Source: Clostridiaceae bacterium (GTDB lineage Bacteria > Bacillota > Clostridia > Lachnospirales > Lachnospiraceae). From it: a stretch of DNA of 64,000 nt. Both the position numbers and the translations under genes were made by a program. The DNA lies in NCBI GenBank assembly GCA_910575795.1, contig CAJTGE010000018.1, positions 28,353 through 92,352 on the forward strand, written 5' to 3'. Under the pieces are notes generated by a model that saw only the letters and a program-made list of their open reading frames with translations, was not told where the DNA came from and made no database searches. Positions 1 to 9,757 of the stretch are shown here, piece by piece (the first letter of the stretch is position 1; the number at the start of each line of letters is the position of its first letter).

Positions 1-15
1 ACAGAACCGTATCAT
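1..15 (-). CDS. Start of an unseen gene leaving the left edge (partial)
   Basis: Only the first five codons (M-I-R-F-C) lie in the window. The call rests on an ATG at 13-15 on the minus strand with a strong AGGAGG ribosome site at 21-26 and a 5-nt spacer. The product cannot be identified. Its importance is positional: it is the first gene downstream of the probable invertible segment at 107-312, so it is the likely target of that switch. Confidence 0.5.
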
Positions 16-79
16 CCGCTCCTCCTGACCGGATTTACAGGAAAGCAAATACCAGCCCATTCAAAGCGCCCCTTTCTGT

Positions 80-106
80 ATACAACATAATACGCATTAT
101 GTCGTA
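80..106 (+). repeat. Left inverted recombination site of a probable invertible segment
   Basis: This 27-bp site is itself near-palindromic: arm TACAACATAAT, centre ACGC, arm ATTATGTCGTA. It matches the reverse complement of 313-339 at 26 of 27 positions. The 4-bp centres (ACGC here, GCGT at the right site) are reverse complements, so the two sites point toward each other, and recombination would invert the DNA between them rather than delete it. Confidence 0.75.
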
Positions 107-312
107 TATGGACAGGCTTCGGCCCGTTTTACGGGCGAAAGGCTGGTACTTCCCTCAAAAGACAGCTACATATGCAATGCAGAATCAGGCTCACAGCAAA
201 TACAATTATAGCGATTCTTCTTTTATATTAAGATTTTTGTAAAAAATTCCGGTTGAAAGCCCTGAAAACATGTGGTAAGATGGTTACAGCCATAGAAACG
301 TGGTGGTATTTG
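107..312. other. Probable invertible DNA segment (phase-variation switch)
   Basis: This 206-bp segment lies between the two inverted 27-bp sites and next to a tyrosine recombinase gene. It is more AT-rich than its surroundings and holds promoter-like sequences but no gene. Inversion would swap which promoter faces the gene at the left edge. It also holds a small hairpin (GCCCGT ttt ACGGGC near 123-137). That it inverts is inferred from the architecture; no inverted copy is visible here. Confidence 0.65.
253..281 (+). promoter_or_regulatory. Sigma-A-like promoter inside the invertible segment, facing right
   Basis: TTGAAA at 253-258 and TAAGAT at 276-281 are separated by 17 bp. In the present orientation it points at the 3' end of the recombinase gene, antisense to it. 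After inversion it would point at the gene starting at position 15. A perfect TATAAT also lies on the opposite strand at 205-210 but has only a poor -35, so the left-facing direction may not be silent now. Confidence 0.55.
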
Positions 313-339
313 TACAACATAATGCGTATTATGTTGTAT
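313..339 (-). repeat. Right inverted recombination site of a probable invertible segment
   Basis: The partner of the site at 80-106. The arms TACAACATAAT and ATTATGTTGTA are perfect reverse complements around the asymmetric centre GCGT. It lies 20 bp beyond the 3' end of the recombinase gene, as expected if the recombinase acts on its own neighbourhood. Confidence 0.75.
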
Positions 340-359
340 TTTTTTATGCAGGAGCCCTC

Positions 360-1298
360 TCAGAGCACCAGGCCCAGCTCCTCGATCTTTTTCCTGTATT
401 CCCTGCCCGATGAAGCCGTATAGATCCTGGTTGTTTCAATATTGCTGTGCCCCATGATGTCCGCCAGCCGGACGACGTCCTTCTGGGCCGCATAAAACGT
501 CCTGGCAAAGAGGTGTCTTAAATTGTGCGGGAAAATCTTGTTCCACGAAACGCCCGACTTCTCACAGAGCCGCTTCATCTCCCTCCAGAGATTGCTCCGG
601 TTAAGACCTCTGCCTGTCCGGGTTGTAAAGACCTCGCCTGTTTTAATCTTTTTCCGTTTCATGTAGGCAAGGAGGCGGGCCTGAAGCGTTCTCCCCATAT
701 ACACGATCCGCCCCTTGCCCTTGTTCAGAATCCGCAGCTTCCCGCTCCGGACCGCCCCGGCTGTGACCGCCTTCAGCTCGCTGATCCGCAACCCCAGCCC
801 GCACAGCGTCTGCAGCGCCAACGAAAGCCGTTCCCTCCCGCGCTTTTCAGCCTCTTTCACGAGACGGTAATACTCCTCGCGCGAAAGCTCCCGCTCCTCC
901 TCACAGATGATCTGCCTCTGGATTTTGATAAATTTCACCCTGAGATCGCCCCATCCCATAAATGCAAAAAAACCGTTCAGCGCCGCCAACATGGAATTCA
1001 CGCTCCGGGGCTGGTAATTTTTTACTAACTGCTCCTTAAACCCAAGCACATCGTCCCTGGACAGGGAGCGCGGCTCTGGCCTGGCCGAAGCCTGCAGGCT
1101 CAGTTGCTCTGCATGTTCACCGCTCTTTTCCGCCTTGTCTTTCTCATCCCCGCCCCGGTATTCCAAAAACAGCCGTATATCATGCAGATATTTTGAGATC
1201 GTCGCCGGGGCGCGCTCCTCCTGCTTTAAATACTGCCTGTACCTCTCGATCTCTTCCATTCCCAATATCCGTTTTTCATCCATCGGTTCCTTCATCAT
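360..1298 (-). CDS. Tyrosine site-specific recombinase (probable DNA invertase)
   Basis: A 312-residue phage-integrase/XerCD-type recombinase. It has an N-terminal SAM-like core-binding region (about 15-130, with a charged insert near 48-80) and a C-terminal catalytic domain. The expected catalytic set is visible: Arg171 (GLRISEL), Lys193/195 (NKGKGR), His258 and Arg261 (HNLRH), His284 (GHSN) and nucleophile Tyr293 (TRIY). An AAGGGGAT ribosome site supports the start at 1298. No phage genes or tRNA attachment site are nearby; instead two inverted 27-bp sites lie immediately downstream, so it is more likely a promoter invertase than a prophage integrase. Its target is inferred from position. 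Confidence 0.9.
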   Translation of the reverse strand: MMKEPMDEKRILGMEEIERYRQYLKQEERAPATISKYLHDIRLFLEYRGGDEKDKAEKSGEHAEQLSLQASARPEPRSLSRDDVLGFKEQLVKNYQPRSVNSMLAALNGFFAFMGWGDLRVKFIKIQRQIICEEERELSREEYYRLVKEAEKRGRERLSLALQTLCGLGLRISELKAVTAGAVRSGKLRILNKGKGRIVYMGRTLQARLLAYMKRKKIKTGEVFTTRTGRGLNRSNLWREMKRLCEKSGVSWNKIFPHNLRHLFARTFYAAQKDVVRLADIMGHSNIETTRIYTASSGREYRKKIEELGLVL

Positions 1299-1598: not shown

Positions 1599-2669
1599 AT
1601 GATGAAACATATAAAACGCCGCTTTCTCAACCTTCTGGCCGCCGCCATGGCCGCTGCCTCGCTCGCCGCATGCTCCGCTGCCGGCGGCCCTTCTGCCCCC
1701 GCCGAATCCGCCTCCGAGCCTTCTTCCCTATCCGCAGAGGTTTCGGAAGCTTCCGAAGAAGCGCCCCCAGAAAACACTCCGGCGCCCGACGCCCCCATCC
1801 GCGTCGGCTCCCTCAAGGGCCCGACCTCCATGGGGCTTCTGGCCCTCATGGACTCAGACGACGCCGGCAAATATGAATTCAGCATGGTGACCGCAGCCGA
1901 CGAGCTCGTTGCCTCCGTCGCTTCCGGCAAAACGGACATTGCGCTCGTTCCCGCCAATGTGGCCAGCGTTCTCTACAACCGCACAAATGGCGGCGTTACC
2001 GTCATTGACATCAACACGCTGGGGGTTCTCTATGTCCTCTCAGCCGACCCCTCCCTCCAATCCGTCGCCGATCTGAAGGGAAAAACCGTGTATCTCACCG
2101 GAAAAGGAACCACGCCCGATTATGTGGCCCGTTACCTCATCAGGGAGAGCGGCCTGGACGAAGGGGATGTGACCCTGGAATACAAATCAGAGGCAACCGA
2201 GGTCGCCTCCATCCTCGCCGGGCGGGACGACGCCACAGCCCTGCTGCCGCAGCCGTTCGCGACTGTGGCTATGGCCCAGAATCCCTCGTACCGGATCGCG
2301 CTGGATCTGACCAAAGAATGGGATCTGCTCCAGCAAGGCAAAGGCAGCCGCCTCGTGACCGGTGTGACGATTGTGCGGAATGCATTTTTAGAGGGGCATG
2401 AGGAGGAAGTGCGGGCCTTTCTGGACGAGCATCAGGCGTCCGCCGAGGCGGCCTTACAGTTCCCGGAGGAAACCGCACAGCGCATTGTCCGGGCAGGCAT
2501 CATCGAAAAGGCCCCTGTGGCGCAAAAAGCTCTTCCCTACTGCAGCATCACCTGTATTACCGGCAGAGAGATGAAGGAAGCCCTTTCCGGCTATCTGTCC
2601 GTGCTGTTTGGGCAGGATCCACAGTCTGTGGGCGGCGCTATGCCCGGGGATGATTTCTATTTTGAATGA
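1599..2669 (+). CDS. ABC transporter substrate-binding lipoprotein (NitT/TauT/NMT1-like)
   Basis: A 356-residue lipoprotein. A short basic N-terminus and hydrophobic stretch end in a lipobox (SLAAC, Cys25), followed by a Ser/Ala/Glu/Pro-rich linker to about residue 65. The periplasmic-binding fold then begins (IRVGSLKGPTSMGLLALM), a pattern typical of the ThiY/SsuA/TauA-like family that delivers small organic ligands to ABC permeases. An AGAGGAG site precedes the ATG. The stop overlaps the start of the permease-ATPase gene by 4 nt, indicating coupling. The ligand cannot be told from sequence; aromatic sulfonates, thiamine precursors or taurine-like compounds are family possibilities. Confidence 0.88.
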   Translation: MMKHIKRRFLNLLAAAMAAASLAACSAAGGPSAPAESASEPSSLSAEVSEASEEAPPENTPAPDAPIRVGSLKGPTSMGLLALMDSDDAGKYEFSMVTAADELVASVASGKTDIALVPANVASVLYNRTNGGVTVIDINTLGVLYVLSADPSLQSVADLKGKTVYLTGKGTTPDYVARYLIRESGLDEGDVTLEYKSEATEVASILAGRDDATALLPQPFATVAMAQNPSYRIALDLTKEWDLLQQGKGSRLVTGVTIVRNAFLEGHEEEVRAFLDEHQASAEAALQFPEETAQRIVRAGIIEKAPVAQKALPYCSITCITGREMKEALSGYLSVLFGQDPQSVGGAMPGDDFYFE

Positions 2670-4189
2670 GGAAAGACATGAAGCGTAAACTCCGTTTTCC
2701 GGCTGTTCTGGCCTTTTGGCTGGTTCTGTGGCTGGCGGCCGCGGCCGCTGTCTCCAATCCGATCCTGTTTGCCGGCCCCGCCGAGGTGGCCGGCGCTCTT
2801 CTGGCGCAGGCCAGGGAGCCTTCCTTCTGGAGGACGCTCGCTTTTTCCTTTGGCCGGATCCTGGCCGGATTCCTGGCTGCGGCGCTTATTGGCCTCCTCT
2901 CAGGCGCGGTTTCCTTTTGCTGTCCTCTGATACGCAGGCTTCTCTCCCCGGCCATCCTCTTTTTACAGTCTGTCCCTGTGGCCTCCTTTGTTATTCTGGC
3001 CCTGGTGTGGGCCGGATCCGCCAACCTGTCGGTCATCATCTCCTTTATGGTCGCGCTGCCCCTCATTTACCAGGCCTCCCTCTCCGGGCTTTCCCAGACG
3101 GATCCGAAGCTTCTGGAAATGTGCCGGGTCTTTCGCGTGGGGAGGCTCCGCCGCGTCCGGGCCGTCTGGCTGCCCGCCCTCATGCCCTGGCTTTCGGGCG
3201 CAGCCGGATCCGCCCTTGGCCTGGCCGTCAAATCCGGGGTGGCCGCCGAGGTGATCGGCGTCCCGGATCACTCCATCGGGAGCCGGCTTTACACAGCCAA
3301 AATCTACTTAAGCACCGCGGATCTCTTTGCCTGGACGCTTATCATCATCGCCTCCGCCTGGCTGCTCCAATGCGGGCTGCGCGCGGCCCTTTCGCTTCTG
3401 TCCGCCCGCATAACCCCGGACGCTGTATCTCCCGGCTCCGGCAGGTTCCGGGAAAGCCGCCTTTTCCAGGGACCGTGCTTTTTCCAGAGGCCGCGCTTTC
3501 TCCGGGAAAAAAAACGCGCAGGAAACGCCGGGCAGAACCCCTTTTTCAGCCTCTCCCTGCATGCGCTTGACAAGCGCTGCGGCGCGCTCCCGGTTCTTCA
3601 AAACCTGGAGCTTACGTTCCGCTCCCCCGGGATCCACTGCATCATGGCCCCCTCCGGCTCCGGGAAGACAACGCTGCTCCGCCTTCTGGCCGGCCTGGAG
3701 ACGCCGGACAGCGGCTGCATTTCCTTTGAGCCTGACCGGCATACAGACAGCGTGAAAGCAAACCGCGTTTCCTGTGTCTTTCAGGAGGATCGCCTGATTG
3801 ACGCCATGACGCCTCTGCAGAATATCGCCCTGGTTCTTCCCGGAGCGCCCGGCTTTTCCCTCTCCCTGCTGCGCCGGGAATGCGCGCGCCTTCTCCCTGA
3901 GGAATGCCTGGACCGCCCTGTCGCCACCTTAAGCGGGGGCATGAAACGCCGCTGCGCTCTTTTGCGGGCCCTGCTGGCCCCTTTTGATCTGCTCCTTCTC
4001 GACGAGCCCTTCACCGGACTCGACGAAAAGTCCAAAAAAAAGGCGGCCCGCTGCCTTGTTGAAAAGACGCGCGGACGCCTCGTTCTCATAGCCACCCACA
4101 ACCAGGACGACGCCCTGCTGTTAGACGCCCATATTCACCGTTTTGACTCCTTTATCGCGGCGCCCACAGAGGGGAAAGCCGATCGTTAA
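2666..4189 (+). CDS. Fused ABC transporter permease and ATPase (SsuC-SsuB/TauC-TauB-like)
   Basis: One 507-residue protein carries both importer parts. Residues 1-250 form a BPD-type permease with about six membrane segments and an EAA-like loop (SGLSQTDPKLLEMCRVFRVG, 140-159). A basic linker (about 255-290) follows. Residues about 295-500 form the ATPase, with Walker A APSGSGKTT (328-336), Q-loop near 373, signature LSGGM (422-426), Walker B LLLLDEP (442-448) and H-loop His478. In this family the two parts are usually separate genes. A start at 2678, which has a better placed AGGA site, is an alternative to the ATGA-overlap start. The reading frame is open throughout, so the fusion is as read; a sequencing indel joining two genes is the main alternative. 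Confidence 0.85.
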   Translation: MRKDMKRKLRFPAVLAFWLVLWLAAAAAVSNPILFAGPAEVAGALLAQAREPSFWRTLAFSFGRILAGFLAAALIGLLSGAVSFCCPLIRRLLSPAILFLQSVPVASFVILALVWAGSANLSVIISFMVALPLIYQASLSGLSQTDPKLLEMCRVFRVGRLRRVRAVWLPALMPWLSGAAGSALGLAVKSGVAAEVIGVPDHSIGSRLYTAKIYLSTADLFAWTLIIIASAWLLQCGLRAALSLLSARITPDAVSPGSGRFRESRLFQGPCFFQRPRFLREKKRAGNAGQNPFFSLSLHALDKRCGALPVLQNLELTFRSPGIHCIMAPSGSGKTTLLRLLAGLETPDSGCISFEPDRHTDSVKANRVSCVFQEDRLIDAMTPLQNIALVLPGAPGFSLSLLRRECARLLPEECLDRPVATLSGGMKRRCALLRALLAPFDLLLLDEPFTGLDEKSKKKAARCLVEKTRGRLVLIATHNQDDALLLDAHIHRFDSFIAAPTEGKADR

Positions 4190-8288: not shown

Positions 8289-8867
8289 GTGGGCGCTATC
8301 TCTGAAGGCAGAAAATTCATTAAAATTGCTGAGCTAAAAGATATGGGATATTCGTATTATAAGATAGGAAAACTTGAAGAGAACGGAACAATTAAGAGGA
8401 TCAATCGCAGCACCTATGAGAATCTTTCCTATAAGGGCGAGGAAAATGATTTTTTTAGTGCCGAGGCATATGTACCAGATGGAGTTATCTGCCTTATGAG
8501 TGCGGCGAGGTATTATGGTTTGACTGATTTTCTGCCGGATGCGGTAGATGTGGCTATTGCGAGAAAAAAAAAGGTCAGCACTCTTCCTGACTGGCCGGAG
8601 ATCAGGATCTATTATTTTGATCCGGGACGTATGGCTCTCGGTGTTCAGGAAATCCGGGATGGGGAAAATTCATTCAATATTTTTGACATTGAAAAGACAG
8701 TTGTGGATATTATTTATTACCGGAACAAGGTCGGAATAGAGGAGACTTCCGAGATACTGAAAAAATATCTTGAAAGAAAAGATCGGCAGATTGACAGACT
8801 CTACGGGTATGCCAAAAAACTCCGCTGCGAAAAAATAATCAGGACATATTTGGAGGTGTTGATATAA
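8289..8867 (+). CDS. abiEi: AbiEi-type antitoxin / transcriptional autorepressor
   Basis: A 192-residue protein with an N-terminal winged-helix-like region (about 1-60; FIKIAELKDMGYSYYKIGKL) and a C-terminal alpha-beta region (CLMSAARYYGLTDFLP, then IFDIEKTVVDII) typical of AbiEi antitoxins of type IV toxin-antitoxin systems. The start is the GTG at 8289, 8 nt after AAGGAGG. It shares one base with the toxin gene (TAATG junction). Base composition is clearly more AT-rich than flanking genes, suggesting acquisition by transfer. AbiE systems give abortive infection against phage and stabilise mobile DNA. Confidence 0.85.
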   Translation: MGAISEGRKFIKIAELKDMGYSYYKIGKLEENGTIKRINRSTYENLSYKGEENDFFSAEAYVPDGVICLMSAARYYGLTDFLPDAVDVAIARKKKVSTLPDWPEIRIYYFDPGRMALGVQEIRDGENSFNIFDIEKTVVDIIYYRNKVGIEETSEILKKYLERKDRQIDRLYGYAKKLRCEKIIRTYLEVLI

Positions 8868-9757
8868 TGAATGCTGATTCCGTAAAAGCACGACTTAAAA
8901 ATTTTGCCGTGGAGACAGGACATACTTTCCAAGAGGCTCTGGTCTATTATGGGTTGGAGAGAACTATATACAGAATTTCTGTGTCAAAGTATGCGGAGCA
9001 TTTCGTGCTGAAGGGTGGAATATTCCTTTATGCGATTTTTGACAGAAATTATAAGAGAGCGACCACGGATGTAGATCTTCTTGCAAGGCGGATTCCAAAC
9101 AGCAGTGCAGAGATGAAGGGGATCTTCAGAGAACTATTAGCACAAGATACAGATGATGCGCTTACTTTTGATGTTGATTCAATTACGGTGGAAGATATAA
9201 CGGAATTTAAGGAATATCATGGTCTGCACATTTCAGCAGAAGCCTATCTTGACAGGACAAGGCTTCCGATAAGCATAGATATTGGATTTGGTGATGTGAT
9301 TTATCCCGATGCAGTGAAGATGGATTTCCCAGTAATTCTTGATATGGAGGCGCCAAAAGTCAATGCGTACTCGCTGGAATCCTCGATTGCAGAAAAGCTG
9401 GAAGCTATTGTACATAATGGATATCTGAACAGCCGATACAAGGATTTTTACGATATTTATATCCTTACGAGTAAGTATTCGTTTGAATATGAAGATGTAA
9501 AAAATGCAGTATCCGAGACGTTTCTAAACAGAGGAACAGAAATGTCTATGAGTACGGCAGCTTTCAGTGAGGAATTTGTTCATGATCCGCTGCATCAGAC
9601 GAGATGGAAGTCCTTTCTGAAAAAGAAAAAGGCAATGGTTCAGATTTCGCTTGAAGATGTAATCGCGGGTGTAAGGATGTTTACCGCGCCACTGCTAAAT
9701 ATTGACAGTGGCGTAAGAAGAAGGTGGAATCCGGAAAGCAGGATGTGGGAGAAATAA
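8867..9757 (+). CDS. abiEii: AbiEii/AbiGii-type nucleotidyltransferase toxin
   Basis: A 296-residue DNA polymerase-beta-like nucleotidyltransferase. The family motif is FVLKGGIFLYAIF followed by RATTDVDLL, the metal-binding Asp pair, near residues 47-70. Later comes the conserved region EKLEAIVHNGYLNSRYKDFYD. Members modify tRNA ends or transfer GTP and stop growth when free of the antitoxin. TTGGAGG precedes the ATG. It is AT-rich like its partner. No other defence or mobility genes flank the pair, so this is a two-gene island. Confidence 0.88.
   Translation: MNADSVKARLKNFAVETGHTFQEALVYYGLERTIYRISVSKYAEHFVLKGGIFLYAIFDRNYKRATTDVDLLARRIPNSSAEMKGIFRELLAQDTDDALTFDVDSITVEDITEFKEYHGLHISAEAYLDRTRLPISIDIGFGDVIYPDAVKMDFPVILDMEAPKVNAYSLESSIAEKLEAIVHNGYLNSRYKDFYDIYILTSKYSFEYEDVKNAVSETFLNRGTEMSMSTAAFSEEFVHDPLHQTRWKSFLKKKKAMVQISLEDVIAGVRMFTAPLLNIDSGVRRRWNPESRMWEK

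Follow-up and report, generated by a model that had tools for sequence, protein, structure and literature searches.

Does the left end of the stretch of DNA analysed here (64,000 nucleotides, G000:C18:28353-92352, referred to as the window) carry a promoter that is turned around by its own recombinase, and which genes would such a promoter serve? A tyrosine recombinase encoded near an invertible promoter is a well-known arrangement; in the fimS switch of E. coli, for instance, a promoter segment lies between short inverted repeats, and the genes of tyrosine recombinases (FimB/FimE) are found beside it. The switch in the window belongs to this known kind and is an inverton with an adjacent tyrosine recombinase: inverted repeats surround a promoter-bearing segment upstream of a gene, and both orientations occur in nature. 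We propose that it is very probably a phase-variation switch, in which the recombinase flips a 206-bp promoter segment, the ON orientation serving two LoaP-like genes and a polysaccharide operon, and the OFF transcript probably being terminated at a recombination site. The features are listed below (window coordinates unless a contig is given).

1..60, minus strand: 5' end of the target gene, coding for a LoaP-like NusG-family protein (start codon 58-60, ribosome site about 62-71)
80..106, no strand: distal recombination site, 27 nt, core ACATAAT-ACGC-ATTATGT, one of an inverted-repeat pair and member of a site family
107..312, no strand: invertible segment, 206 bp, probably in the OFF orientation in the window
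253..281, plus strand: extended -10 promoter TTGAAA-N17-TAAGAT, facing the recombinase in the window (from scan and conservation)
312..345, plus strand: putative intrinsic terminator of the OFF-state transcript, site hairpin followed by a T-run at 339-345
313..339, no strand: recombinase-proximal recombination site, 27 nt, core ACATAAT-GCGT-ATTATGT, the other member of the inverted-repeat pair
360..1298, minus strand: tyrosine recombinase, 312 aa, PF00589 (E 1.5e-22) and a SAM-like N-terminal domain
G000:C18:27147-27668 (= L009:12148-12669), left of the scaffold gap: intact target gene, 173 aa

Recombination sites and recombinase

The two 27-bp inverted sites with 206 nt between them, and their ACGC and GCGT centres, had been described in the initial annotation and were found again on recomputation; the sites match as an inverted repeat at 26 of 27 positions (96% complementary). 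In the 6.2-Mb genome, exact ACATAATNNNNATTATGT occurs at nine places, every one of them at one of four recombinase loci (one of the four being a relic), and the window pair and its left-contig copy account for four of the nine. The reversed pattern of ACATAATNNNNATTATGT, searched as a control in the same genome, gave 0 matches. Because exact ACATAATNNNNATTATGT is confined to recombinase loci and the control is empty, the sites in the window are not a product of chance.

The claim that a complete tyrosine recombinase is encoded 20 bp from the proximal site was borne out, and the 3' end of its gene faces the switch. The five residues named earlier (R171, H258, R261, H284, and Y293), together with K195, are invariant in an alignment of 18 sequences, and we take all six to be the catalytic residues on the basis of established family knowledge. 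The protein thus has both the R, K, H, R, H, Y set and the PF00589 match of a tyrosine recombinase. It scored below the cut-offs of the curated XerC, XerD, and XerA models (123.8 vs 220, 102.4 vs 335, and 101.8 vs 330 bits, respectively). The tyrosine recombinase gene beside a short-repeat promoter segment resembles fimS, but the protein is unlike the FimB/FimE type, as the DNA invertase models NF007370 and NF007371, presumably representing that type, gave 29.5 and 29.2 bits (cut-offs 221 and 222). The nearest solved structures are 4a8e (XerC-like, 131 bits) and XerD 1a0p (105.7 bits).

Relatives of the recombinase (E <= 1e-45) were detected in 57 of 299 family genomes, the window's own counted, the 299 being an even draw from a larger group. 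A scan of named genomes gave at least 572 confirmed candidates, of which the best 80 were taken (mostly Clostridia by their titles). With regard to a possible mobile origin, relatives were also present in five plasmid records (E <= 1e-30) and one phage record (E <= 1e-25), all of them with less than 60% identity.

Both orientations of the segment

The window is preceded by a single n, a one-base scaffold gap, and the contig end to the left of this gap contains, in order, the LoaP-like gene, the distal site, the inverted segment, a site, and an inverted copy of the gene start. The inverted arms in this left contig run for 431 bp with 1 mismatch, located inside the site. The expected flipped sequence, computed by exchange in the middle of the sites, agrees with the left contig for 339 bases, and the unflipped window for only 102; one base differs at 102, in the position predicted for an exchange in the site core. 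Both orientations are present in the assembled sample. In the simplest reading, the assembler encountered both and fused the left junction of the ON state with a reversed copy of that of the OFF state; of the two ON junctions, the chimaeric left contig shows the left one, not the one at the recombinase. A true inverted duplication at the left edge of the window is possible, but it would need to end precisely at the scaffold gap.

A search of related genomes for both orientations, as had been suggested, gave the same picture. Among 76 pairs of similar segments (all 141 segments, near copies included), 57 were oriented alike relative to the recombinase and 19 in opposite directions; with near copies removed, 39 pairs among 33 loci remained, 28 same and 11 opposite. 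The pairs are not independent, since five of the eleven opposite ones include the locus G006:C249, in which the conserved part of the window's segment is inverted. Contigs also end within 400 bp of the recombinase more often on the switch side (33) than on the other side (5), as counted at 200 of the 207 loci, with some records in both sets; this is expected if mixed orientations break assemblies, and the repeats themselves could contribute. The proposed phase-variable promoter layout is hence supported by both orientations in the assembly, by homologous loci in opposite states, and by spacers matched in 122 of 123 loci (see below).

Promoter and state of the switch

The TTGAAA-N17-TAAGAT promoter reported in the segment was recovered at 253-281 on the plus strand, with a TG preceding the second hexamer, and it is kept in six intact homologous switches and in a relic on contig C28. 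In a consensus scan of the region, five promoters were found vs 3.4 +/- 2.1 in shuffles, which is not above chance. A leftward candidate (TTTACA-18-AAGAAT, 214-243, 9/12, no TG) is directed toward the target even in the window state; the rightward promoter is preferred over it because of its conservation in the six homologous switches and the relic. The leftward TATAAT at 205-210, previously cited as a reason for doubt about the state, is present in G003:C55 and C337, but it was not returned by the scan and is absent from C2 and G003:C314.

The window is probably in the OFF state, as had been suspected, since the conserved promoter faces the recombinase, and the weak leftward candidate leaves some of the doubt in place. 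The conserved promoter faces the recombinase (OFF) at the window, C2, G003:C55, G003:C337, and G003:C314, and the LoaP-like gene (ON) at the congeneric locus G006:C249. Over the family, strict promoters (at least 11 of 13) were present in 54 of 126 nonredundant segments vs 1-7 in ten shuffles, and they pointed to the recombinase only in 40, to the target only in 11, and to both in 3 (neither, 72). At a threshold of 10, which is the score of the window's own promoter and lies below the strict one, the numbers were 66, 15, and 13 (neither, 32), with shuffles already reaching 20-37. The ratio of 40 to 11 among strict promoters indicates that assemblies mostly catch the OFF state.

Target gene and polysaccharide operon

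The leftward gene had been assigned a start at position 15; the start codon is instead at 58-60, and the ATG at 15 is codon 16 of MGWYLLSCKSGQEERM... The homologues of the target begin with MGWY or VGWY, which supports the start at 58-60. When the sequence was extended leftward, as proposed in the initial annotation for identifying the target, it led to the LoaP-like gene and then to a polysaccharide operon. For the first LoaP-like protein the best Pfam model is NusG (22.0 bits, cut-off 22.2, E 2.3e-4) and the best NCBIfam model is LoaP, NF033641 (104.1 bits, cut-off 125); a second LoaP-like gene comes next (NF033641 122.8 bits, cut-off 125; Pfam NusG 39.8). Both are named LoaP-like only, because they score below the LoaP cut-off. 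The genes that follow encode a DegT-type aminotransferase, a bacterial sugar transferase, a FemAB/acetyltransferase-like protein, a group-1 glycosyltransferase, a LicD protein, an IspD-type cytidylyltransferase, an epimerase/dehydratase, a family-2 glycosyltransferase, a 439-aa protein without Pfam match, and a WsaF-type glycosyltransferase. Judged by these predicted products, the genes behind the LoaP-like pair are a surface-polysaccharide operon.

A conserved noncoding element of about 130 nt was observed after the first LoaP-like gene (L009:11995-12125, minus strand, G000:C18:26994-27124; also L282-L289). It occurs at nine places in six of the eight genomes of the genus (E <= 0.001), including G004 and G005, which hold no close relative of the window recombinase. 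Its best match in Rfam had an E-value of 0.23, below gathering, a two-sided change was seen in only 1 of 22 predicted pairs, and a model of the element, run with strict filters on 150 family genomes, matched only its own genome. Antitermination by the LoaP-like proteins might act through this element. In the available text of PMC12691694, LoaP of Bacillus velezensis is described as binding a UNCG-type hairpin and antagonising NusA, the requirement being a UNCG-type RNA hairpin and a terminator in the leader of the controlled operon.

Site family and spacer rule

The sites follow a simple grammar, in which conserved arms (ACATAAT/ATTATGT) flank four free bases. A spacer-blind search (ACATAAT-N4-ATTATGT, up to 3 mismatches over the 14 arm bases, two best sites per locus) was applied to a start set of 207 loci, i.e., 125 from family genomes, 80 from named genomes, C2, and the window; 21 loci were dropped at 90% or higher identity, and 155 of the remaining 186 had at least 450 bp downstream. 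Of these 155 loci, 123 had two suitably spaced sites, vs 0-2 loci in each of 20 block shuffles. The spacers were reverse-complementary within the pair in 122 of the 123 nonredundant loci (101 of 101 at up to 2 mismatches), vs 104 of 15,006 comparisons between loci (0.7%), and the two-site loci in the 20 shuffles had no spacer match. At the single exception, L201, a third nearby site does match. Altogether 80 different spacers were seen, or 60 when reverse complements are counted as one. The recombinase protein of L011 is unreliable in the redundancy filter; its sites are unaffected.

In a relaxed search of the 32 loci without a canonical pair, 16 gave repeats above the shuffled maximum (most with other arms, some marginal, and two merely beyond the earlier search range), four gave N-runs, and 12 gave nothing, so that a site pair was absent from 12 of the 155 loci with enough sequence. 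Because half of these non-canonical loci keep matched repeats, mostly with other arms, it is the spacer that agrees within a pair; the arms seem, from the sequences compared, to vary with the recombinase. The chemistry known for tyrosine recombinases predicts identical spacers in partner sites. In the loci scanned, the matched pairs sit 3' of the recombinase gene, and none was found 5' of it within the stretch searched.

The four N-runs belong to draft genomes (L171, L218, L236, and L244) and are located past the recombinase, within the switch or close to it. Some switches have three or more sites with the same spacer (L083, L112, L141, L143, L158, L160, L165, L166, L195, L229, and L261), L261 having three on each side; such an arrangement would permit nested inversions or deletions.

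One genome, G007, contains eight pairs with eight different spacers. Selection for unique spacers within a genome was tested for and found no support, since three collisions were found among 100 within-genome pairs in 14 genomes (G259, C180/C66; G256, C13/C2; G169, C182/C152) and 1.4 were expected by shuffling. Insulation between loci may instead follow from the spacer rule. Palindromic spacers were present in two of 122 loci (AATT and CATG), with 7.6 expected were all 256 spacers equally likely, which is only suggestive of avoidance.

Recombinase-side site as a possible terminator

Each site is a palindrome able to fold. For bases 305-350 of the window the folding energy is -12.4 kcal/mol (z -2.84), a T-run lying where the stem ends, and the other site folds at -13.6 and -13.7, without a T-run; a terminator scan of the region, which demands more G-C, did not list 312-345. 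Within 16 bases outward of the site, a run of five or more T residues was counted at the recombinase-side site in 44 of 122 loci (window included) and at the target-side site in 9 of 122; T-runs reading inward from the sites were seen in 2 and 6 of 122. The T-runs just outside the hairpin suggest a transcript stop, and on sequence grounds the recombinase-side site may double as a one-way terminator that keeps the antisense OFF transcript out of the recombinase gene.

We tentatively combine these observations in an addressing code, in which the arms are read by the recombinase and the four central bases are a free address that partners must share, with the recombinase-side site of the close clade acting as a one-way terminator; we put this combined reading at slightly less than an even chance. 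If true, such a code lets many cassettes with the same arms share a genome without cross-inverting the chromosome. Among the matches listed in literature searches on invertible promoters, LoaP, Clostridia invertons, site spacers, and the arm sequence (titles and abstract starts), there was no description of the site family or the spacer rule. With the rule, Clostridia genomes can easily be searched for such switches, and the 80 spacers are a natural recombinase/site set in which one can test directly whether spacers must be identical and how likely cross-inversion between loci is.

Proposed mechanism and alternatives

In the mechanism we propose, the adjacent recombinase would exchange strands within the central bases of both 27-bp sites and so flip the 206-bp segment. 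In the ON orientation (left contig), the extended -10 promoter would transcribe the first LoaP-like gene, the second LoaP-like gene, and the operon, which the LoaP-like proteins would antiterminate; in the OFF orientation (window), the promoter would be aimed at the 3' end of the recombinase gene, and its transcript would probably be stopped at the site hairpin and T-run.

The two orientations could also reflect a mixed sample or bin in which two related strains are each locked in a single state, with no ongoing clonal switching. The genome is a draft of 273 contigs with an estimated contamination of 6.88%, as such a mixture might give, but the sequence shared across the gap is identical except for the one base inside the site, as inversion predicts (431 bp with 1 mismatch, 339 bp with 0); moreover, strains that differ by an inversion would also imply recombination at some point, and related loci repeatedly show opposite orientations, so we regard a mixture as quite improbable. 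It is hardly credible that the inverted repeats are terminators or protein-binding sites and the inversion incidental: palindromic sites and recombinase-side T-runs would fit, but such functions do not call for four bases that vary freely from locus to locus and still are reverse complements inside each pair, and the inverted states are observed.

Two further alternatives accept the inversion and differ from the proposed mechanism in the enzyme or in the fate of the OFF transcript. A paralogue or a host Xer protein might act in trans in place of, or beside, the adjacent recombinase, as RecV of C. difficile does on several switches according to the available part of PMC5903667; in its favour, the arms are the same at C1, C2, C18, and C28, and the spacers of C18 and C28 are identical. 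The position of the matched pairs on the 3' side of the recombinase argues against this, as does the finding that some relatives adjoin pairs with other arms, which hints at co-evolution of enzyme and arms, and we consider action in trans unlikely. We also doubt that the OFF promoter produces an antisense RNA that passes the site and, by repressing the recombinase, makes the OFF state more stable: the promoter does face the recombinase 3' end, and strict promoters toward the recombinase outnumber those toward the target (40 vs 11), but the T-runs beyond the recombinase-side hairpin, the window's among them, suggest that the transcript stops there.

Relation to known systems

As in the capsule switches of Bacteroides, an invertible promoter here precedes the gene of a putative NusG-family antiterminator and a polysaccharide operon, an arrangement now seen in a Lachnospiraceae-type gut genus with an adjoining recombinase. 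It differs from the UpxY switches of Bacteroides, which belongs to another phylum, in that the putative antiterminator fits the LoaP model best and the recombinase adjoins the locus; to our knowledge, the recombinases and sites of the Bacteroides capsule switches are unrelated to those described here. With the Xer/dif system the switch shares a site made of two inverted arms around a short centre, but its sites are paired, inverted, and beside a gene, and its recombinase scores below the Xer cut-offs.

The available text of PMC11892184 notes UpxY genes near invertons and describes an inverton group 139, detected from sequencing reads, with 33 invertons, 32 of them from the class Clostridia; the group is significantly linked to nearby tyrosine recombinases (invertase group 35), and its IR motif is reported as novel. 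The switch family of the window probably overlaps this group, as far as the two can be compared by description, and the main text of that report, as available, contains neither 'spacer' nor 'loap'. PMC5903667, in its available part, places inversion signatures in Clostridia near signalling and chemotaxis genes; the RecV switches of C. difficile (cwpV, flagellum, and pdcB/pdcC) are likewise cases of clostridial site-specific inversion, but RecV serves several switches in trans and here each switch has its own adjacent recombinase. An example of what shared sites may do is found in Eggerthella lenta, in which, according to the available text of a preprint (PMC13174815), megabase inversions take place at copies of a 16-bp repeat located next to capsule clusters and loaP, with no adjacent recombinase gene.

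Targets across the family

Targets were assigned by a first-ORF rule, which gave a protein for 129 of 206 loci (74 from family genomes, 75 with that of the window, and 55 from named genomes), and their families were counted among the 25 commonest Pfam families per set. The commonest named targets in the family genomes are the polysaccharide ones, CpsB/CapC (11 of 75) and NusG (6 of 75), followed by signal peptidase S26 (5), helicase-associated domain (3), diguanylate cyclase (2), and helix-turn-helix (2) proteins; four-helix-bundle sensor, choline-binding, leucine-rich-repeat, and also DNA-repair-type proteins occur singly. Among the 55 named-genome targets there were response-regulator domains (4), SPFH domains (3), diguanylate cyclase (3), and CpsB/CapC (1). 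Going by Pfam names, many targets elsewhere belong to neither the surface nor the polysaccharide category.

In the recombinase tree (the row for L011 is not to be counted), the recombinase of the window groups with five relatives whose targets are LoaP-like, at a support of 100/100, and recombinases with CpsB-type targets are scattered over several places; further targets in the tree are LoaP-like at L151 and CpsB-like, by its letters, at L158. Since the recombinases with LoaP-like targets form one supported group, a cassette appears to keep its type of target, at least there, and the tree argues against target hopping in that group.

Other switches and neighbouring genes in the same genome

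Contig C2 carries a second switch, with the same gene order as at the window, both LoaP-like genes included, and C1 carries a third one, located before a gene for a 112-aa helix-turn-helix protein. At the C28 relic (L010:9328-11520, G000:C28), the promoter, a recombinase gene without its middle, and a single site remain; the spacer of this site is that of the window. On the target side of the relic there is a 338-aa ORF that is transposase-like by eye.

Beyond the recombinase gene, positions 1599-4189 of the window encode an NMT1-type binding lipoprotein and then an ORF that fuses ABC permease and ABC ATPase domains. An AbiEii-type nucleotidyltransferase toxin (PF08843, E 9.9e-42) is encoded at 8289-9757, and a 192-aa ORF immediately upstream of it, with no Pfam match, may be its antitoxin.
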